Below are positions 324 through 10,694 of a DNA stretch of 40,013 nt, one piece after another. Under the pieces are notes generated by a model. It searched no databases. It saw only the letters and a list, made by a program, of their open reading frames with translations, and was not told where the DNA came from. The translations under genes and the position numbers were made by a program. The DNA comes from Bacteroidales bacterium. Lineage in GTDB: Bacteria > Bacteroidota > Bacteroidia > Bacteroidales > JAOZQN01. Where the stretch lies: the NCBI GenBank assembly GCA_029932195.1, contig JAOZQN010000006.1, positions 1-40,013 of the forward strand, read 5' to 3'. Every line of letters begins with the position of its first letter. Positions within the stretch are counted from its first letter, which is position 1.

Positions 324-457
324 GAGTTCAAGTTTTTTTGGAGGCTGAAAACAAAAGCGGATACAAATTTCAACCTCTATATTTACTTATTGTAAATGAG
401 TATTTTAAATTTTGTATCTACTTTATTTTTAGCAAAAAAAACTTTTCGAAGTGGACT
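324..457. repeat. R1: degenerate imperfect palindrome, diverged member of the intergenic palindrome family
   Basis: Centre tatttac-ttatt-gtaaatgagtattttaaattttg matches the centres of R3/R4. The right end aaaacttttcgaagtggact matches the R2 terminal stem (cttttcggagtggactc in reverse complement). Confidence 0.55.
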
Positions 458-551
458 AAACCTTATAAAGTAAAATAAATTTGACATAAAATACTTTTTG
501 TTTTTAATAAAATATTATATTTGCATTATCGTTTTAAATATATCTAACTTT

Positions 552-691
552 GAGTCCACTCCGAAAAGCCTCTTTTTACCAAACTCGGCGTTGTAAATCT
601 TTTTTCAATCCTCATTATCAATAAGATAACTGTGGTAAAAAAAAGATTTATGCCTTGATTTTGACAAAAATAGACTTCTCGGAGTGAACTC
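552..691 (-). repeat. R2: ~140 bp imperfect palindrome
   Basis: Left arm gagtccactccgaaaagcctctttttaccaaactcggcgttgtaaatctttttt aligns with the reverse complement of the right arm, gagttcactccgagaagtctatttttgtcaaaatcaaggcataaatctttttttt, over ~54 nt. Confidence 0.85.
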
Positions 692-708
692 AACTTTTAA
701 ATTAATCA

Positions 709-1641
709 ATGATGAAAAAAAAATACTTATTTGTTTTTATTCTTATAATACCACTTTTTTTTACTTCTTGTGAAAAAAAAGGAAATATAGAAATTTATGA
801 CACAGGACATGTTGTGGAAAATTGCACTTCGCCATTTTTTATCCAGTTTTATTTAGATTTATCATTTCAACCAACAGAAATAAATTACACTTGGGATTTT
901 GGCGATGGCACTACATCTAATGATAAAGAGCCTATTCATTCATACTCAGAACCTGGGGTTTACAATGTTAAATTAGTAATAGAAAATTACAAAACCATTG
1001 TAGAGGAAACTATGATTGTGAATGTAAATAAAGATACTCTTGATATTGTTGCAGATATGGATTATGAGACTATTTTTAATCTGATTGCCCCTGCAGAAAT
1101 TCAATTTTATAATTACTCAAAACATGCAACTTCATATTTTTGGAATTTTGGCGACGGTCTTGGTTCAGACGAAGTAGAGCCTATTCATATTTATGAAAGT
1201 TCAGGAACACAAACAGTTGTTTTATACGCAATATGCGAAGGAGACACAACTTCTGCTACCTATAATTTAGAAATTAAACCTGCACCAGAGAAAGTTTTTA
1301 TTAATAATGTTGTTATTTGGTTACCAGAAAGCTATCTCGGAGGAGAATACGAACTTGAGTATTATTACGATATTCACAACGAAACACCAGTAGGGCTTGG
1401 TTCAATAGCACCATCATCATTTCCAATGGACTGGGTATTTGATGAGGAAATATTTTTCTTTAATGGAGATTACGATAGAGATTTTTTATCTTTTGAGATA
1501 TGGGACAGATATGATAACCACTCTCCTGTATATACTTTTCAAACAACAATGTCTAAATTAGCCGAAGAACATTACCCCGAAGTTATGGTTTGGGACGATG
1601 GCAATGGATTTGCGGCAGAAGTATATTTTTCTTATCAATAA
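709..1641 (+). CDS. PKD-domain lipoprotein
   Basis: 310 aa ORF with a lipoprotein signal (FTSCEKKG) and two PKD-like motifs (TWDFGDGTTS, FWNFGDGLGS). Confidence 0.8.
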   Translation: MMKKKYLFVFILIIPLFFTSCEKKGNIEIYDTGHVVENCTSPFFIQFYLDLSFQPTEINYTWDFGDGTTSNDKEPIHSYSEPGVYNVKLVIENYKTIVEETMIVNVNKDTLDIVADMDYETIFNLIAPAEIQFYNYSKHATSYFWNFGDGLGSDEVEPIHIYESSGTQTVVLYAICEGDTTSATYNLEIKPAPEKVFINNVVIWLPESYLGGEYELEYYYDIHNETPVGLGSIAPSSFPMDWVFDEEIFFFNGDYDRDFLSFEIWDRYDNHSPVYTFQTTMSKLAEEHYPEVMVWDDGNGFAAEVYFSYQ

Positions 1642-1766
1642 AAAGCTAAATTATAGAACTAAACTCTACTAATAAACGAATAAATTCCTGACCTATCGTA
1701 AACTAAATTGCCTGTTTTTTTAATACTCAACATTCAATAAAGAATATTCAATTTTCAACAAAAGAA

Positions 1767-1804
1767 CTAATAAACCAATAAACCAATAAACTAATAAATT
1801 AATT
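1767..1804. repeat. Period-8 tandem repeat (YYAATAAA)n abutting a start codon
   Basis: ctaataaa ccaataaa ccaataaa ctaataaa ttaatt immediately before ATG at 1805. Confidence 0.7.
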
Positions 1805-2719
1805 ATGAAATCGTTAAAACTGTCTATTTTAGGAATTATTATTATTCTACTCTCTAATAGTGCTATGGCACAGTCAAATAGAGACTGGTGGAATAGTTTG
1901 TCGCCCGCATGGAAAACTGTTTTTCAAGAACAAGAACTTAAGGGGAAAAATGTTACTCCAAACGACGAACAATTAGAAAGAATTGTTCAAATAACACATA
2001 TTGATTGTTCTTATAATAAGGAAGTTAAAAATTTAAAACCTCTATCAAAACTTTCTTTTTTAATAGAAATAAGATGTGAACATACAAATATTGAAAGTCT
2101 TGAAGGCATAGAAAACTTAACGAACCTTATGGTTATTGATTGTTCTGACAATGATAATATCAATAGCTTAATTCCATTAACAAATAATGTTAATTTAGAA
2201 GAAATAGATTGTAGCAATACTATGGTTAAAAATTTAGCCCCACTTGTGTATTTAAAGAAGCTGAAAAAACTTGATGTTCACTATTGCACCGTGAATAAAC
2301 TCACACAAATAACCAATCTAAAAAGTTTAGAAATTCTTGATGTTTCGCAAAATAGACCTCTTTATGATATAAATGGAGTTGAAGGTCTAACAAATTTGGT
2401 GGAATTTAATATTAGTGAAACAAAAGTAAGAGACCTTTCACCTTTAAAACAGCTTAATAATCTTAAGGTTCTAAACCTTGCAATTACACCAGTAGAAACA
2501 TTAAGACAACTTCAAAATCTTACACAACTTACTGAAATAGATTTTTCTAAAACAAGAGTAGCTTCTGTTAGCTTAGATTATTTATATGGACATTTATCTT
2601 TCAAAATGCTAAGAGCCAGAGAAGTAGATATAACCGATGCTGAAATAAAAACTTTTACTGATTTTTATAAACAAAAAAACCCTAATGCCATCATAATAAT
2701 AACTCCTAAGAAAAAATAG
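1805..2719 (+). CDS. Leucine-rich-repeat exported protein (internalin-like LRR)
   Basis: Signal peptide, then ~22-aa LRR units (LKPLSKLSFLIEIRCEHTNIESLEGIENLTNLMVIDCSDN...). Confidence 0.8.
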   Translation: MKSLKLSILGIIIILLSNSAMAQSNRDWWNSLSPAWKTVFQEQELKGKNVTPNDEQLERIVQITHIDCSYNKEVKNLKPLSKLSFLIEIRCEHTNIESLEGIENLTNLMVIDCSDNDNINSLIPLTNNVNLEEIDCSNTMVKNLAPLVYLKKLKKLDVHYCTVNKLTQITNLKSLEILDVSQNRPLYDINGVEGLTNLVEFNISETKVRDLSPLKQLNNLKVLNLAITPVETLRQLQNLTQLTEIDFSKTRVASVSLDYLYGHLSFKMLRAREVDITDAEIKTFTDFYKQKNPNAIIIITPKKK

Positions 2720-2758
2720 TAAATCTATATATCTTGGAGGACTCGTATTTTTTCACAA

Positions 2759-2794
2759 AAAAAACCGTATAGTTTTACAACTATACGGTTTTTT
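2759..2794. terminator. Bidirectional intrinsic terminator between convergent genes
   Basis: Perfect 16-bp stem aaaaaaccgtatagtt-ttac-aactatacggtttttt with A/T tails. Confidence 0.85.
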
Positions 2795-2798
2795 ATTT

Positions 2799-3197
2799 TT
2801 AATGGAAATCATTTTTTCGTCTATTTTTCTTTTCAGAGTGTTTGCGTTTTTGTTCCAAAATTTTAGCTTTTACATATTTTGAAATTTTATATTTCTTGCG
2901 TTTTTTGGGTTTATATAAACCAATTTTCAATAATTCGTAAAAGCGTTCAATGCAATTTTCCTTATTTCTATGCTGGCTACTATTTACTTGAGAAACTATT
3001 TGTAAAATATTTTCTTGAACTATTCTACTCTTCAAGTTTTTTTTCAACAATTCCTTCTCTTCTTCTGAAAGCAAAACAGAACTGTCAATATTAAAACGTA
3101 ATTCTACTTTTGTCTCCACTTTATTAACGTGTTGTCCACCAGCCCCACTGCTTCGAGAGGTTGAGAACTCTAATTCAGAGGAAAAATCTCGTTTCAT
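2799..3197 (-). CDS. arfB: Class I release factor-like peptidyl-tRNA hydrolase (ArfB/YaeJ family)
   Basis: GGQ motif SSGAGGQHVNKVETKVELRF, short ORF with a Lys/Arg-rich C-terminal tail. Confidence 0.9.
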   Translation of the reverse strand: MKRDFSSELEFSTSRSSGAGGQHVNKVETKVELRFNIDSSVLLSEEEKELLKKNLKSRIVQENILQIVSQVNSSQHRNKENCIERFYELLKIGLYKPKKRKKYKISKYVKAKILEQKRKHSEKKNRRKNDFH

Positions 3198-3283
3198 TGC
3201 TAAAAAATTGTTTAATTGTAATAAGTAGTTAGTTAAAAGTTATCAAACTGAAAGGAATTTACTGAAAATAAGTATCTTATTTT

Positions 3284-3409
3284 AGGCATTTTTCACGAGT
3301 GCCAATTTCGGCGTTACTTTTGAAATTTTAAAATACTCATTTACAGATGTAAACTTCAATTCTAAAATTTATAAAAAAGCCTTGAACTTGACACTCATGA
3401 AAAACGCCT
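3284..3409 (-). repeat. R3: 126 bp imperfect palindrome of the same family
   Basis: Left arm aggcatttttcacgagtgccaatttcggcgttacttttgaaattttaaaatactcatttaca pairs with the right arm (reverse complement aggcgtttttcatgagtgtcaagttcaaggcttttttataaattttagaattgaagtttaca). Confidence 0.88.
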
Positions 3410-3450
3410 TATTTTATTATTATTGTTAAAAAAAATTTGTCATACTACTT

Positions 3451-3510
3451 ATTGCTAAATTGCTGAAAATATATTTTCAACAATTTAACAATTCAGCAAT
3501 ACAACAATTA
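3451..3510. repeat. Period-8 repeat with a 42-nt head-to-head palindrome
   Basis: attgctaaattgctgaaaata / tattttcaacaatttaacaat (2 mismatches in 21), followed by cagcaata caacaatt octads. Confidence 0.7.
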
Positions 3511-3511
3511 T

Positions 3512-6244
3512 TTAATTATTTTGGAAAATAAATGCGTTTGGATATTTAGTTTTTAATCTGTAAAATTCCTCTTGTGCGTCATTAAGTTTATTAAAAGAAC
3601 CTATATAATAGTAATATGTATTATCTTTTTTAAATTCTTTTGTTCCTGCTTCAAAATCAGTAATATTTCTTTTTGTAGCCGATTCCGTAATATTTATAGA
3701 ATATGTAGCATCGTTAGTTTTATCTTCAATAATATACTTCTCAGGAACTACAACCTGTTTTACTTTTAGTTGTTTTTCTGCTCCTTGTTTTGTTACAACA
3801 ATTTCCACTCGTCTATTATAACCAAGTGCATCCCAAATATATTTACCATTTTTGTCTCTATTTTTAGCAATTTGTTTGTCAAATCCTTTTCCTTCCGATT
3901 GTATTTGATTTTTATCTACACCTTTATCTACTAAATAATTTTCCACAAAATTTGCGCGTCTTTTAGAAAGTCGCTTGTTGTAATTAACTGGTCCTTGAGT
4001 ATCCGTGTAACCAATTAATTTTACAGAAGCATCTTTATTTTGAGTAATATACTCTGCAAGTGTATTTAGCTCTTCGTTATATTTGTTTGTTTTATGTTTG
4101 TTTATCTCAAATAAAACATTTGATACAAAAACGACATAAACCTCCTCTGCTATTGTTACTACAGGAATACTCTTTTTTGCTTCTTCTATTGTTATATCAT
4201 CGTAAAGTGTATATTCTAACGAATTTGGGTCAATACTATTTGTAGATAATTTTGTTAAAATTCTATCTTGGCTAATTCCATTTGCAAGAAGATAATTTTG
4301 AGCTACCTCTATTCTATCTTCTCCAATTTTTGTGGTTGGCTCTGTATTTTTTTGTGTAGAAAGATCTACATAAAGATAATCATATTTTTTCATAAAATTA
4401 GAAAGCAAATCTAATTCAAGTTCTTGTTGGTCAGACAATTCATTAGTTTCTAAATCAAAATCCGTAATTCGTGATTGTTTTATTTCACCTCTTATTAACG
4501 TGTCCATTTCTGCTTTGTAAAAAATATCATGATAGCCAGGCTCTAATTCTTCAATATGTTTTATATCAAACATGTGTCCATCTGCCTCATAATAAATAAG
4601 ATGTCTATCTCCTGGACGAATAACAAACATATATTTTCCTGTTCTGTCGTTAGGGTTATACATGTTATCTATCATTTTTGTTTTCACATAATAATCTGCA
4701 ATTATAGTTCCCTCTGGAATTTTACAAAGACTGTCTGTTACAGAAACTTTGTTATTGTCTATAAGCATATCTGTAATTCGTATGCTATCGTTGTAGTTAT
4801 AATCGAAAATTTTGTCTGCACCAATTTTTCGTGTTCCAATTATTACTGTATCTCCTTTAAAACTAACTTCATTTTTTGAAAACTCTTTGGTTTCAGTATT
4901 ACTATCATAAGTAAAACCCGTTACAAGGATTATGTCATTTTCGCTTTCGTATAATTCAACAATATAGATATTTGACGATTCTCCTTCTTGCTGTGAAGAA
5001 TAATATGCTCTATTACCTCTTATTGTTGGAGCAAAAAACACGTCGTTATCAACTGTATTTAATGGAAATCCCATATTTTGTCGATCGATCCAGTTTCCAG
5101 ACTCATCTAATTGAGCTTTATAAATATCAAATCCTCCCATTGTATTATGACCTTGCGAACTAAAAAATAAAGTAGTTCCATCATAATTTAAGAATGGACC
5201 TTCTTCGTCTAATTCCGTATTAATGGTTGGTCCTAAGTTCTTAACATTAACCCATTCTCCTGCATCATTTCGTTCGGCAACGTATATATCCATACCTCCA
5301 TATCCACCTTTACGCTCACTCGTAAAATACAATTTTTTACCGTCAGTAGAAATACTTGCATGCGATTCTCTTTTTCGTGTATTTACATCTCCTTCTAACT
5401 TTTTGGGTGAAGTCCATTCATCTCCATTTGCTGTGCTATAAAAAATATCACCCTTATCTTTTTTTGTAGCCTTATACATAAAAAGTTCATTTCCATCAAA
5501 AGACAACCCACAAGTTGCTTCATGATCATTGGAATTTACGGTAGTATCAACTCTGTATGGTTTGGCATCTAATCCAAGTTTTTTATCATATATATATATA
5601 TCTTCATAAAACTTTTCGTCGTCTGCAATTCGTCCACCTGTGCTACCCTTTCTTCGTGAAGTAAAAATAACCATAGATTCGTCGGCAGTAACAGTAGGGC
5701 TATGGTCTGAATATTCTGAATTTATAACACCTAACTTTATTACCATCATCATTTGAGGATTTTCAAAAAGAGCAATAGCATTTTCACAAACCTTTATTTT
5801 TTTATCTATTTCCTTCTTATCCCCTTTATTTTTTGTTAAACCTTTTAGTTTTATGTAAGTATCTTTTGCAGAGTAAAAATCATAATTTACATAAAAAGCA
5901 TAAGCCAGACCATAATAAGCATCTAATGGAGCATATTTTACTTTCTCCCCAGAGTTTTCAAAGTTGGTTATTACTTTCTCAAAAGGCTCTATGGCTCTCC
6001 AACGTTCTTTTGTATAAAGATAACAAAAGCCGAGTCTAAAATTAACAGCATCATCGTCTGGATTTATTGCTAATAATTCGTTATATATTACTATGGCTTC
6101 TTCAAATTTAGCATCTTCAATGTAATCTTCTGCTTCACTAAACTTGTCTTTGTAAACAGGGTCGTTGTTTTGACCATTGGATAGTTGGGCAAATGATCCC
6201 ATAGCTATCAGAAAAAATGTTAAAATTAATGTAAGGTGTTTCAT
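3512..6244 (-). CDS. TPR - WD40-like (PD40) - OmpA family protein with SPOR-like C-terminus (PorE-like domain order)
   Basis: 910 aa: signal peptide, TPR (AEDYIEDAKFEEAIVIYNELLAINPDD), PD40 repeats (SHASISTDGKKLYFTSERKGGYGGMDIYVAER), OmpA domain (LIGYTDTQGPVNYNKRLSKRRANFVENYLVDKGV), C-terminal YYYYIGSFNKLNDAQEEFYRLKTKYPNAFIF. Confidence 0.85.
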   Translation of the reverse strand: MKHLTLILTFFLIAMGSFAQLSNGQNNDPVYKDKFSEAEDYIEDAKFEEAIVIYNELLAINPDDDAVNFRLGFCYLYTKERWRAIEPFEKVITNFENSGEKVKYAPLDAYYGLAYAFYVNYDFYSAKDTYIKLKGLTKNKGDKKEIDKKIKVCENAIALFENPQMMMVIKLGVINSEYSDHSPTVTADESMVIFTSRRKGSTGGRIADDEKFYEDIYIYDKKLGLDAKPYRVDTTVNSNDHEATCGLSFDGNELFMYKATKKDKGDIFYSTANGDEWTSPKKLEGDVNTRKRESHASISTDGKKLYFTSERKGGYGGMDIYVAERNDAGEWVNVKNLGPTINTELDEEGPFLNYDGTTLFFSSQGHNTMGGFDIYKAQLDESGNWIDRQNMGFPLNTVDNDVFFAPTIRGNRAYYSSQQEGESSNIYIVELYESENDIILVTGFTYDSNTETKEFSKNEVSFKGDTVIIGTRKIGADKIFDYNYNDSIRITDMLIDNNKVSVTDSLCKIPEGTIIADYYVKTKMIDNMYNPNDRTGKYMFVIRPGDRHLIYYEADGHMFDIKHIEELEPGYHDIFYKAEMDTLIRGEIKQSRITDFDLETNELSDQQELELDLLSNFMKKYDYLYVDLSTQKNTEPTTKIGEDRIEVAQNYLLANGISQDRILTKLSTNSIDPNSLEYTLYDDITIEEAKKSIPVVTIAEEVYVVFVSNVLFEINKHKTNKYNEELNTLAEYITQNKDASVKLIGYTDTQGPVNYNKRLSKRRANFVENYLVDKGVDKNQIQSEGKGFDKQIAKNRDKNGKYIWDALGYNRRVEIVVTKQGAEKQLKVKQVVVPEKYIIEDKTNDATYSINITESATKRNITDFEAGTKEFKKDNTYYYYIGSFNKLNDAQEEFYRLKTKYPNAFIFQNN

Positions 6245-6573
6245 AGTCTTCTTTTTCTAAAAATTTTTATAGTCTTCTTAATTTGCAAAGATAGTAAATT
6301 TTCATATAAAAAACATATTTTTTAATAAAAAAATTATACATTCAACTTTACATTTAACGAAAATACAGTAACGACCTAAAAAACAATGTTTTAAAAACAC
6401 GTAAAATGTTTTTAAATAATTACTTTATAATTTACAGAAAGGTATTCTACTGAAAAAGAGCAGTATGATTTAAGTCATTTTTTACAATAATAAAAATCAT
6501 CTTTTAAAGATTAGTTATAATCTACTTTTACTACAAATTTAAAACATATAATAACCACTAAAAAAATATAATT

Positions 6574-7050
6574 ATGGCAGACATAAAAAAAATAGTAAAA
6601 GAAATATCTGCAAAACATGAAGACAAACGGGTTAACTTAATCCCTATACTTCAAGATATTGTAAAAGAAAATAATTTTTTATCAAATGATGCAATGACAG
6701 AAGTCGCAAGAGCTTTAGATATCTCTGCTGCAGAAGTTTATGGTGTTGCTTCTTTTTATTCTTTCCTCGAAACAAAAAATGAAGGAAAATATAAGATATA
6801 TGTGTGCAAATCTATTACTTGCGACATGAAAAACAAAAATAAAATAATAAAAACAGCAGAAGAAATGTTGAAAATAAAGTTAGGAGGAACCTCACCTTGT
6901 AAAGAATTTTCGTTGTTGGAAACTAATTGCCTCGGACTTTGCGATAAAGGACCTGCAATGTTAATTAATGACGATTTTTATACAGAACTTACTCCTACCA
7001 AAATACAAGAAATATTAGGAAAAATAAGAAGAGAAGGAGTATCTTGCTAA
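6574..7050 (+). CDS. hydC: NADH-dependent [FeFe] hydrogenase gamma subunit, NuoE/HydC-like [2Fe-2S] protein
   Basis: 158 aa NuoE fold; AAEVYGVASFYSFLE, cluster cysteines VCKSITCDMK and ETNCLGLCDKGPAM. Confidence 0.88.
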   Translation: MADIKKIVKEISAKHEDKRVNLIPILQDIVKENNFLSNDAMTEVARALDISAAEVYGVASFYSFLETKNEGKYKIYVCKSITCDMKNKNKIIKTAEEMLKIKLGGTSPCKEFSLLETNCLGLCDKGPAMLINDDFYTELTPTKIQEILGKIRREGVSC

Positions 7051-7093
7051 CTATTAGCTATGCAAGGCAACAACAAACACAAATCAGAATAAC

Positions 7094-7135
7094 AAAAAGC
7101 GAAGAGCTAAAAGCAAAAAGCTAATAGCCAAAAGC
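7094..7135. repeat. Six consecutive heptads NNNNAGC
   Basis: aaaaagc gaagagc taaaagc aaaaagc taatagc caaaagc. Confidence 0.8.
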
Positions 7136-7153
7136 TGAAAAAAAACAAACAAA

Positions 7154-8314
7154 ATGACAAATAAACTAAAAAAAGCTGACATAATATTTAGTGAATATTC
7201 AGTTGCTCCATATCAGATATTAAAAGAAACGATAAAAAAATCCGAAGACGATGTAATTCAAGAATTATTAGATTCTGGATTAAAAGGAAGAGGTGGTGCA
7301 GGATTTCCAACAGGTTTGAAATGGAAATTTGGAGCTGCCGAAAAAGGCGATGTAAAATATATTATCTGCAATGCAGATGAAGGAGAGCCAGGAACTTTTA
7401 AAGACCGTAAACTTCTTATGGAAGTGCCTCGTAAAGTTATCTCTGGAATGGCTATATGTGCCTGGGCAACAGGAGGAACACAAGGGTATATTTATTTAAG
7501 AAGCGAATATAAATATCTTATTCCAGACCTAAAAAAAGAATTAGAAATATTTAAAAAATGCTCTAATGAAATGGGATTAGATTTTCCTATTGAAATTTTT
7601 ATTGGTGCAGGTGCTTACATTTGTGGTGAAGAGACTGCTCTAATAGAATCTATGGAAGGAAAAAGAGGTGAGCCAAGAAATAAACCACCATATCCTATCC
7701 AAGACGGATTACATGGCAAACCAACTATTGTAAATAATGTAGAAACTTTTGCTTCGGCATCTATGGTGTGTCGCTATGGTGCAAAAGAATATCAAAGATT
7801 TGGAACATCTGACCAAAGAGGTTCTAAATTATTTTCTATTTCGGGAGATTCACCAAAAGAAGGTGTTTACGAACTGGAACTTGGAATGAGTATTGCTAGT
7901 TTTGTTAAAGAATTTGGCGACGGAGATACAAAAGCAGTCCAAGTTGGAGGAGTAGCTGGTTTTTGCATTCCCCGTAAAGATTTTGAAAAAGCAATTGTAG
8001 GTGAAGGAAATACTTCTGGTGCTTCTACAATGGTGTTCAATAGCACTCGTTCAATGTATAGAGTTTTACATAATTACTTAGAATTTTTTGAAGAAGAATC
8101 ATGCGGACAATGCACACCTTGCAGAATAGGAACACAACAACTTCTAAAAGGACTCGAAGCAGTTAAACATGGTAAAAAACCTGCCGAATACCTCGACCAA
8201 CTTGTTAAACTAAGCGAAACAATGCAAATAACATCTAAATGTGGTCTTGGTCAGTCGGTTACTAATTCATTCACTACTATTGTTGATAACTTTAGAGAAG
8301 AAATGATTTATTAA
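7154..8314 (+). CDS. hydB: NADH-dependent [FeFe] hydrogenase beta subunit, minimal NuoF/HydB-like flavoprotein
   Basis: FMN/NADH motifs GRGGAGFPTGLKW and CNADEGEPGTFKDR; [4Fe-4S] motif ESCGQCTPCRIGT...SKCGLGQS. Only 386 aa, ending shortly after the N3-type cluster. Confidence 0.9.
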   Translation: MTNKLKKADIIFSEYSVAPYQILKETIKKSEDDVIQELLDSGLKGRGGAGFPTGLKWKFGAAEKGDVKYIICNADEGEPGTFKDRKLLMEVPRKVISGMAICAWATGGTQGYIYLRSEYKYLIPDLKKELEIFKKCSNEMGLDFPIEIFIGAGAYICGEETALIESMEGKRGEPRNKPPYPIQDGLHGKPTIVNNVETFASASMVCRYGAKEYQRFGTSDQRGSKLFSISGDSPKEGVYELELGMSIASFVKEFGDGDTKAVQVGGVAGFCIPRKDFEKAIVGEGNTSGASTMVFNSTRSMYRVLHNYLEFFEEESCGQCTPCRIGTQQLLKGLEAVKHGKKPAEYLDQLVKLSETMQITSKCGLGQSVTNSFTTIVDNFREEMIY

Positions 8315-8320
8315 AAAAAG

Positions 8321-8414
8321 GAAAAACAATTGAAAAACGATAGAAATACAATGGAAAATTATAGATAAGTTATGTTACTTACAATTGTATTTCAATTTAT
8401 TACAATCGTATTTC
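8321..8414. repeat. Period-11 tandem repeat arranged as an inverted pair
   Basis: gaaaaacaatt gaaaaacgata gaaatacaatg gaaaattatag ... aattgtatttc aatttattac aatcgtatttc (reverse complement units gaaatacaatt/gaaatacgatt). Confidence 0.75.
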
Positions 8415-8450
8415 ATCCTTTCCCTTAATAACAATTAAACTAAAAAAACT

Positions 8451-10238
8451 ATGTCAAATACAGTAAAATTAAATATAGACGGCATTCAAGTAGAAATAGA
8501 AAAAGGAAAATCTATACTTGATGCTGCAAAACAAGCAGACGTTCGCATACCAACACTTTGTCATCACGAAGACTTATGCGTATCAGGAAACTGCCGAGTT
8601 TGTGTTGTAGAAATTGAAGGAAGAAACAGATTAGAAGCCTCTTGTGCTGTGCCTGCCGAAGATGGTATGAAAGTTATTACATCATCACCAAAAGTGAGAA
8701 GAGCAAGAAAAGATGTTGTTGCACTTCTTGTTTCGGAACACAACACACAATGCACAACTTGTTACCGTAGCACAAACTGCGAGCTTCAAGACCTATCTGC
8801 TGAATATAATATTGATAACGAAATTTATTTAAGTGTTCTTAAAGAAGGAACTACTGTTGATAAATCATCGTGGTCTATAGAAAAAGACGATAGCAAATGT
8901 GTGCGTTGCCAAAGATGTGTTAGAGTATGTGCTGAATTACAACATGTTAATGCTCTTACAGTTGCAAATAAAGGTAAAGATATGAAAATTTCTACCTATG
9001 CCGAACTTCCATTTGCAAGTGTAGTTTGCACAAACTGTGGACAATGTATAACTCACTGTCCAACAGGTGCTTTAACAGAACGCAGATATTTTGATGACAT
9101 TTGGGGTGCAATTGGAGACCCTGATAAACACGTAGTTATAAACACAGCTCCATCAGTGCGAGTGGCACTTGGTGAAATGTTAGACTTCCCAGTAGGTTCA
9201 ATAGTTACAGGAAAAATGGTAACAGCCCTTAAGAAAATTGGATTTGACTCTGTTCTTGATACCGATTTTGCTGCCGACCTCACAATTATTGAAGAGGGAC
9301 ACGAACTACTTGACCGTTTGAAAAAAGCCCTTGTAGATAAAGATGAAACAGTAAAATTACCAATGATAACATCTTGTTCTCCAGGTTGGGTTAAATTTAT
9401 AGAGCACATGTATCCAGACCATTTGGGACATCTTTCTACTTGTAAATCTCCACAACAAATGTTTGGTGCAATGACCAAAACATATTACGCAGAAAAAATG
9501 GGACTAGACCCATCAAAAATTGTTAGTGTAGCAGGTATGCCTTGTGCTGCTAAAAAGTTTGAAGCAAATCGCCCTGAAATGAAAAGTAGTGGTTATCAAG
9601 ATGTTGATGCTGGTCTTACTACTCGTGAAATTGGGCACATGATAAAACAATCTGGACTAAATTTCATGGATTTAGACGACAGCGATTTTGATAGTATCAT
9701 GGGACAATCATCTGGAGCAGGTGTTATTTTTGGAGCAACTGGTGGTGTTATGGAAGCAGCTTTAAGAACTGTATATGAGCTTGTAACAGGAAGAGAAGTT
9801 CCATTTAAAAACCTAAATATTACTCCAGTAAGGGGACTTGAGGGAATAAAAGAAGCAACTATTAAATTTGAAAATTGTCTGTCAGGTTTTAGTTTCTTAA
9901 ATGGGGTTGAAGCAAAAATAGCAATTGCACATGGTCTTAAAAATGCAAGAATTATTATGGACCAAATAAAAGACGGAAAATCACCATATCATTTTATTGA
10001 AATTATGGCATGTCCTGGTGGATGTATCGGAGGTGGCGGTCAGCCAATACCAACCAACGATGAAATTCGCTTAAAACGTATTGCTGCAATTTATGCCGAA
10101 GATGCTGGGAAACCAATCCGTAAATCTCACGAAAATCCTGAAATTACTATGATTTATCAAGATTTCTTGAAGGAACCTTTGGGAGAAAAATCACATCATC
10201 TATTACACACTCATTACATAAAACGTAACAGATATTAA
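8451..10238 (+). CDS. hydA: [FeFe] hydrogenase catalytic subunit HydA (M3-type domain layout)
   Basis: [2Fe-2S] CHHEDLCVSGNCRVC...C, His-ligated HNTQCTTCYRSTNC, two [4Fe-4S] CVRCQRCVRVC and CTNCGQCITHCP, H-cluster motifs TSCSPGW, MPCAAKKFE, EIMACPGGCIGGGGQP, and small-subunit tail EPLGEKSHHLLHTHY. Confidence 0.96.
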   Translation: MSNTVKLNIDGIQVEIEKGKSILDAAKQADVRIPTLCHHEDLCVSGNCRVCVVEIEGRNRLEASCAVPAEDGMKVITSSPKVRRARKDVVALLVSEHNTQCTTCYRSTNCELQDLSAEYNIDNEIYLSVLKEGTTVDKSSWSIEKDDSKCVRCQRCVRVCAELQHVNALTVANKGKDMKISTYAELPFASVVCTNCGQCITHCPTGALTERRYFDDIWGAIGDPDKHVVINTAPSVRVALGEMLDFPVGSIVTGKMVTALKKIGFDSVLDTDFAADLTIIEEGHELLDRLKKALVDKDETVKLPMITSCSPGWVKFIEHMYPDHLGHLSTCKSPQQMFGAMTKTYYAEKMGLDPSKIVSVAGMPCAAKKFEANRPEMKSSGYQDVDAGLTTREIGHMIKQSGLNFMDLDDSDFDSIMGQSSGAGVIFGATGGVMEAALRTVYELVTGREVPFKNLNITPVRGLEGIKEATIKFENCLSGFSFLNGVEAKIAIAHGLKNARIIMDQIKDGKSPYHFIEIMACPGGCIGGGGQPIPTNDEIRLKRIAAIYAEDAGKPIRKSHENPEITMIYQDFLKEPLGEKSHHLLHTHYIKRNRY

Positions 10239-10337
10239 ACTGATTGATTCATGGAATTGTTTAATTGCTATATTGCAACAAAACTCATAACAATTTCATG
10301 AAATAATATAAGCTAAACTTTTGTTATTTAAAATTAT

Positions 10338-10377
10338 AAAAATAGAAATTAGGGTTTTATCCTTAATTTCTATTTTT
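10338..10377 (+). terminator. Intrinsic terminator after the hydrogenase operon
   Basis: aaaaatagaaattaggg-ttttat-ccttaatttctattttttttt; 17-bp stem with one G/T-type difference and a T-run. Confidence 0.8.
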
Positions 10378-10430
10378 TTTTAGAATAATAACCGAAATTT
10401 AATATTTTTGTCAATTATATTTACAAAAAG

Positions 10431-10678
10431 GGCGGTTTTCACGGGTGCCAATTTCAAGGTTTTTTTGTAATTTTAGAATTGAAGTTTACCTTTGGGCACT
10501 CCTAAAAACTCAAAAATCAAGGCTTTCAAAATTCTTAAAGTTTGAGTTTACTCCTGTAAATGAATATTTTACTAATTTTGTATAACGCAGAGTTTGGAGT
10601 TTTTAGGAGTGCCCCTTTGTAAATGAGCATTTTAAAATTTCAAAAATAACGCAGAAATTGGCACTCGTGAAAAACGCC
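10431..10678 (+). repeat. R4: outer palindrome of the same family, split at its apex by R5
   Basis: Left arm ggcggttttcacgggtgccaatttcaaggtttttttgtaattttagaattgaagtttac; reverse complement of right arm ggcgtttttcacgagtgccaatttctgcgttatttttgaaattttaaaatgctcatttac. Near-identical to R3 in inverted orientation. Confidence 0.88.
10494..10614 (+). repeat. R5: 121 bp inner palindrome nested in the loop of R4
   Basis: gggcactcctaaaaactcaaaaatcaaggcttt... / reverse complement of right arm gggcactcctaaaaactccaaactctgcgttat...; 18-nt perfect terminal match and the same core motifs as R2-R4. Confidence 0.88.
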
Positions 10679-10694
10679 ACAAAAAGATATAAAA

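Follow-up and report, generated by a model that had tools for sequence, protein, structure and literature searches.

First recognized in 1990-91, the enterobacterial repetitive intergenic consensus (ERIC) repeats are in worldwide use in strain typing, yet their movement and function are unsettled. ERIC is an intergenic, multi-copy, imperfect palindrome of ~127 bp with a conserved central palindrome, a description that likewise applies to the family of elements analyzed here, five members of which (R1 to R5) lie in a 40,013-nucleotide stretch of DNA from a Bacteroidales bacterium (GenBank assembly GCA_029932195.1, contig JAOZQN010000006.1; hereafter 'the window'), which is one contig of a 6.73 Mb assembly in 944 contigs. 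A 2007 review (PMC2229807) describes ERIC as having short terminal inverted repeats (TIRs) and TA at its termini, and as acting in Yersinia on upstream transcripts in an RNase E-linked manner, and a 2024 review confines its range to the Enterobacteriaceae and Vibrionaceae (PMC10969869). ERIC in Yersinia is reported to be transcribed and to change the stability of mRNA. The window family, in contrast, possesses other ends flanked by 8- or 4-bp target duplications, and is found in Bacteroidota with kin in Halomonas, Modicisalibacter, Pseudomonas and others; owing to these ends and duplications it is filed as belonging to an ERIC superfamily and not as ERIC proper. The window elements are very probably non-autonomous transposable elements (miniature inverted-repeat transposable elements, MITEs) of this superfamily, whose core travels as a passenger with swapped ends.

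Three end-types are distinguished in this genome, i.e., type A (GGCGTTTTTCACGAGTG), type B (GGGCACTCCTAAAAAC) and type C (TGAGTCCACTCCGA), the last with a variant, C2. R2 to R5 are complete elements, each with exact ends and exact target duplications, and the features in the window are as follows:

319-457, + strand: R1, a decayed type-C element with approximate outer limits and its core at 343-436, recognized by a covariance-model match (343-436) and blastn likeness to type C (348-457)
547-550: left target duplication of R2, ACTT (read from the sequence)
551-692, core sense on the - strand: R2, a type C2 element with ends TGAGTCCACTCCG / CGGAGTGAACTCA
693-696: right target duplication of R2, ACTT (read from the sequence)
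3277-3284: left target duplication of R3, TTATTTTA
3285-3408, core sense on the - strand: R3, a type A element with ends GGCATTTTTCACGAG / CATGAAAAACGCC
3409-3416: right target duplication of R3, TTATTTTA
10423-10430: left target duplication of R4, ACAAAAAG
10431-10678, + strand: R4, a type A element split by R5, R4 proper being 10431-10493 plus 10619-10678
10490-10493: left target duplication of R5, CTTT, within R4
10494-10614, + strand: R5, a type B element with ends GGGCACTCCTAAAAAC / GTTTTTAGGAGTGCCC, inserted in the R4 apex
10615-10618: right target duplication of R5, CTTT
10679-10686: right target duplication of R4, ACAAAAAG

The first-pass annotation of this DNA had listed R4 and R5 as separate members with overlapping coordinates and had missed the nesting: type-A halves (10431-10489 and 10618-10678) lie on both sides of R5, whose position in the R4 apex indicates that it jumped into a pre-existing element. 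A second nested case, of a type C element inside a type A element, was found at locus L081. The motif AACGCMGARWTTGG occurs exactly at 579-592 (-), 3302-3315 (-), 10584-10597 (+) and 10648-10661 (+), and six matches are obtained against 1.4 expected if two mismatches are allowed. A covariance model whose training set held R3 and R5 and left out R1 and R2 returned E-values of 3e-16 (R3), 7e-16 (R5), 2.5e-11 (R2) and 8.5e-7 (R1). The same annotation had listed R1 as a diverged member, which the covariance-model match bears out, with the refinement that R1 is now read as a decayed type-C copy. All sequences that it described are present in the window, and it was right that open reading frames (ORFs) do not explain the palindromes, none of at least 100 aa covering them. 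An Rfam search of the whole window at gathering score matched a tRNA alone, and the palindromes fitted no family; together with the further copies and the covariation described below, this runs counter to the outcomes (no more copies, no covariation, or presence in Rfam) that the annotation had named as refuting it. Directly upstream of the R4/R5 nest, the genes at 6574-10238 read as NuoE-, NuoF- and [FeFe]-hydrogenase-like.

The genome carries hundreds of copies of the element with the three end-types, as searches with R2, R3 and R5 as queries and with the end patterns indicate. The element is 121-144 bp long, multi-copy and without a transposase gene. The scored candidates include at least 40 R3-like copies, at least 40 R5-like copies, and at least 15 close R2-like copies plus further distant ones, while end-pattern counts of 221 type-B and 291 type-C ends correspond, very roughly, to ~110 type-B and ~145 type-C elements. 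A set of larger contigs totalling 415 kb, picked partly for containing matches, holds 24 full and 18 partial copies, with 23 of the 24 full copies outside ORFs. Insertions lie in AT-rich intergenic DNA (95 of 103 full copies are intergenic), at a median distance of 57 bp to a stop codon versus 149 bp to a start codon.

The MITE-like nature proposed at first pass is borne out by the target duplications, which were assessed in 103 full copies with their flanks, using crossed flanks as a control. The duplication is exactly 8 bp in 25 of 32 type A copies and exactly 4 bp in 24 of 33 type B copies, while a 4-bp duplication flanks 16/23 type C and 11/15 type C2 copies (27/38 for C and C2 together), against a crossed-flank expectation of 0.06-1.2. 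The duplication length thus depends on the ends: it is 8 bp with A ends, 4 bp with B or C ends, and 4, 5 or 8 bp with other ends in other species. Since different duplication lengths denote different transposases, even though A, B and C have one core, this core is carried by unrelated transposases, and the earlier suggestion of a conserved core with swappable stems stands.

Module exchange appears to be visible when C is compared with C2: the two are identical at 79 of 83 positions in the outer arms but at only 43 of 64 in the inner part with the hairpin top, and the switch is located at CAAGGC/AACGC. Core identity is 58% between type A and type C of this genome, and 68% between its type C and a Halomonas element. 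Two further observations concern the types themselves. The outer stem of type A, GGCGTTTTTCACGAGTGCC, looks like an inside-out version of the type-B stem (GAGTTTTTAGGAGTGCCC; p=1e-4 by shuffling; window positions 3285-3303 and 10494-10511), and A and B copies at L082 (1744-1846) and L102 (320-412) carry AACATGCC(A/G)TTAGGCA in place of AACGCCGA, which adds a small hairpin at the 3' loop.

The core structure was derived from an anchored alignment of 22 diverse members, and runs in the following order: end and P1 stem, CAAGGC, P2, CCGGAG, the apical stem GTTTAC/GTAAAT, TGAG, P2', AACGCnGA, and P1' with the opposite end. Paired positions account for 90.7% of cells in this alignment, compared to 67% when shuffled and at most 41% with slid partners, while the covariation score is 0.58, compared to 0.16 when shuffled and at most 0.17 when slid; neither value was reached by any shuffle. 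The core is a covarying hairpin, in line with the RNA-structured character that had been proposed for it. The apical stem is invariant in the alignment because the loci had been fetched by that very pattern; in three loci of Bacteroidia (L237, L243 and L247), however, it is swapped for TCCCGA/TCGGGA with the surrounding loop bases retained. Furthermore, among 82 loci retrieved by the apical pattern alone, AGGC stands at the right upstream distance in 69 (3.5 expected) and both flanking motifs are present in 53 (0.9 expected). Of 42 representatives, 38 have the more stable RNA fold on the core-sense strand (mean -8.3 kcal/mol), and the variable stems alone, with the conserved core removed, still favour that strand by 31 to 7 (n=38 informative; p=1e-4), although the p-values of these strand comparisons are optimistic, since the members are in part related to one another and one pair entered the count twice. 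This predicted strand asymmetry suggests that the core works as folded RNA or single-stranded DNA (ssDNA), beyond a role of the ends in double-stranded DNA.

The first-pass annotation had not recognized the family as a named one; it does have a named relative, ERIC. The core resembled ERIC, which prompted a test: ERIC loci were fetched from E. coli genomes with an ERIC consensus, while the model used in the test comprised the 22 members and no enterobacterium. In three E. coli stretches the model matched ERICs only, over their full length (E=1.7e-5, 0.031 and 0.58), and in 200 kb of K-12 MG1655 it returned four matches at E<=10 (6.5e-5, 0.076, 1 and 3.1), which are exactly the four ERIC copies located independently by an ERIC motif, and nothing else. 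Several of these E-values are weak singly, and the argument is one of specificity, with four of four copies found and no other match. ERIC also displays the same order and spacing, i.e., CAAGGC, stem, GGAGYTTAC nnn GTAARTGA, stem, CAACGC. Judged from sequence and predicted fold, the core is homologous to the E. coli ERIC core, which makes the window elements ERIC-superfamily MITEs. A text search of open-licence papers for the core sequence returned no relevant paper, and an earlier notice of non-enterobacterial ERIC kin may exist.

To place the family in a wider range of hosts, GTDB genomes were searched with the apical pattern. Among the matches listed, the same core with other ends was found in Bacteroidales, Flavobacteriales, Chitinophagales and Cytophagales, as well as in Gammaproteobacteria, i.e., Halomonas, Modicisalibacter, Pseudomonas, Cycloclasticus, Piscirickettsiaceae and others. 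Copy numbers per genome, counted at E<=0.001, reach at least 150 in a GMC8 Bacteroidales metagenome-assembled genome (MAG), and amount to 44 in a Prevotellaceae, 36 in a Flavobacteriales and 17 in an Alistipes genome, 40 in the isolate Modicisalibacter ilicicola DSM 19980, 17 and 27 in Halomonas, and a single copy each in Thiopseudomonas and Chitinophagales genomes. The distribution is patchy, as in an even draw of Bacteroidia the element is present in at least 8 of 148 other genomes (a lower bound). No copy was found in phages, and the element turned up in 3 of 2.9 million viral contigs. The ends and duplications of these relatives differ in turn: genome G143 has ends GGGCATCTCTAAAAAC with 4-bp duplications, the Flavobacteriales have ends AAGACCGTTTCAAAA with 5-bp duplications (5-bp readings beyond this order being from single copies each), GMC8 has ends GGCGTTTTTCAYRAGTG with 8-bp duplications, and a proteobacterial MAG has ends GGAAGCTCTGAAAAA with duplications TTAA or TTAG, a combination which we take to be IS5-like. 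In two Halomonas genomes (loci L207 and L209) the element apparently occupies the same site, with similar flanks on both sides, in what looks like a shared old insertion.

Deletion derivatives are informative as regards mobility. In G143, duplications still flank 105-bp copies from which the P2 strand on the 5' side is missing, as well as a copy of only 60 bp that lacks almost the entire core, and since these derivatives transposed without the core, the ends alone suffice for movement. At loci L265, L267 and L268 of this genome, the same ends, GGGxATCTCTAA(A/T)AAC, surround a palindrome of 142 bp whose interior is unrelated (GCCACTAAGGCACC...), which indicates that the transposase mobilizes other cargo too. 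End-pattern searches of the window's own genome, G143, one Halomonas record and G153 returned only MITE-sized pairs or orphans, and no partner carrying type A or B ends was found in the window's own genome. Several candidates were rejected: a C237 end pair 1.5 kb apart encloses ordinary genes, DDE_Tnp_1 matches in the window's own genome are without these ends, and type-B ends at contig starts, taken for insertion sequence (IS) ends, are really collapsed MITE copies. At C441:17492, a type-C-like end (~25 bp shared) accompanies a putative IS3-like C-terminal transposase fragment (Pfam rve_3, E=0.022). The surrounding locus (L119, 15543-16021 and 17492-18032 of G000:C441) is a nest in which C-type ends lie together with a B element and this IS3-like relic, and is possibly a graveyard of the type-C partner IS.

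Several observations weigh against the interpretation of the elements as mobile carriers of a functional core. The window's own genome, G143 and G153 yielded no autonomous transposon with these ends, which is weak evidence because drafts are interrupted at repeats, as shown by contigs that begin within type-B copies. Gene orientation shows no bias (31 same, 23 opposite), which lends no support to a cis-regulatory role; the excess of G.U over A.C in the window's own genome does not reach significance if independent events are counted (45:36); and part of the stem covariation could come from template switching without selection. On one rival reading, the core would be functionless junk filler, spread by transposases, with stems that covary only through template-switch copying of arms, and it is true that the ends alone suffice for mobility, that interiors are swapped as blocks and that only 8 of the 148 sampled Bacteroidia carry the element. 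The unpaired, asymmetric loop motifs (CAAGGC, AACG and GAG/UGAG) are, however, nearly invariant between phyla while stems are wholly replaced, even the apical stem at L237, L243 and L247, and strand asymmetry is unexpected from strand-symmetric copying, so that we regard a functionless core as improbable. A somewhat better case, although still an unlikely one, can be made for a core that acts as ssDNA and not as RNA, for example as a strand-specific hairpin recognized in replication, recombination or transposition: strand-specific fold stability fits it equally, G.T being milder than A.C in both, and the missing orientation bias relative to genes agrees with it, yet insertion is of the double-strand type with 4-8-bp duplications, derivatives without most of the core still moved, and ERIC RNA has been reported to affect Yersinia transcripts (PMC2229807).

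The two accounts that dispense with a mobile common core fare worse. Should A, B and C be ordinary IS-derived MITEs of independent origin, their interior and its likeness to ERIC would be convergence or chance; this would be in keeping with the differing duplication lengths, with the resemblance of type C ends to the IS3-like relic and with the similar ends around unrelated interiors in G143, but it is very hard to reconcile with the flanking motifs of the apical-pattern loci, or with a single covariance model that covers Bacteroidota, Halomonas and E. coli ERIC elements over their full length with no false matches, and is accordingly held to be very unlikely. That the palindromes are immobile, fixed structured non-coding RNA genes or terminators, as covariation, hairpin form and location near 3' ends might imply, has next to no probability, being refuted by the perfect target duplications, and is further contradicted by nested insertions and end-specific subfamilies of near-identical copies.

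For mobile elements of the ERIC superfamily with a passenger core, the following course of events may be envisaged. A DDE transposase acting in trans would recognize the ends only, excise the element and insert it elsewhere, while the core would persist thanks to the hairpin, with its two conserved internal loops, that the core-sense transcript or single strand forms. Contact of this hairpin with a conserved host factor or nuclease may, as has been reported of ERIC transcripts in Yersinia, make it tolerable or useful for the element to sit close to the 3' end of a gene. Upon loss of a transposase, the core would survive by taking other ends, probably through nested insertion or hairpin-to-hairpin exchange followed by arm-to-arm copying. 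On balance, we lean towards the view that ERIC represents a single branch of an ancient hairpin superfamily spanning phyla, whose selfish RNA or ssDNA core outlives transposases by swapping end and stem modules around the two conserved internal loops, and parasitizes many unrelated transposon families. A single core that occurs with duplications of 4, 5 and 8 bp, and with TA ends in the case of ERIC, would represent an unusual parasite of several transposase families. ERIC kin with clean target duplications in living families render ERIC mobility and function testable, and comparison of the core across phyla could reveal what is under selection.

Other known systems resemble the window family in part. 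REP and REPIN sequences are likewise intergenic, high-copy palindromes, which are not known to have such target duplications. Their units measure 20-40 bp (PMC3733652) and are linked to Y1 transposases (PMC2817692), and no sequence likeness to the window family was seen. Integron attC sites were dropped from the comparison because target duplications are present here. The IS-related MITEs MITEAba12 and RUP are also short, without an ORF, possess terminal inverted repeats and target duplications, and are mobilized in trans (PMC6382973, PMC2229807); elements of this type, however, wear the ends of one IS, whereas here a single conserved core goes with numerous unrelated ends and with duplications of several lengths. 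Among Rfam families, the full extent of sX9 of Xanthomonas (RF02228) can be aligned to the proteobacterial element L162 in reverse-strand orientation (22.9 bits; gathering score 44), and V_AS5 of Vibrio (RF02818) to one of the E. coli ERICs (25.8 bits; gathering score 96), each score lying far under its threshold. The former is registered as a small RNA (sRNA) and the latter as an antisense RNA, neither as a mobile repeat; sX9 ranks among the most abundant annotated sRNAs (PMC9029176), and entries such as this one may need to be reinterpreted as mobile repeats.

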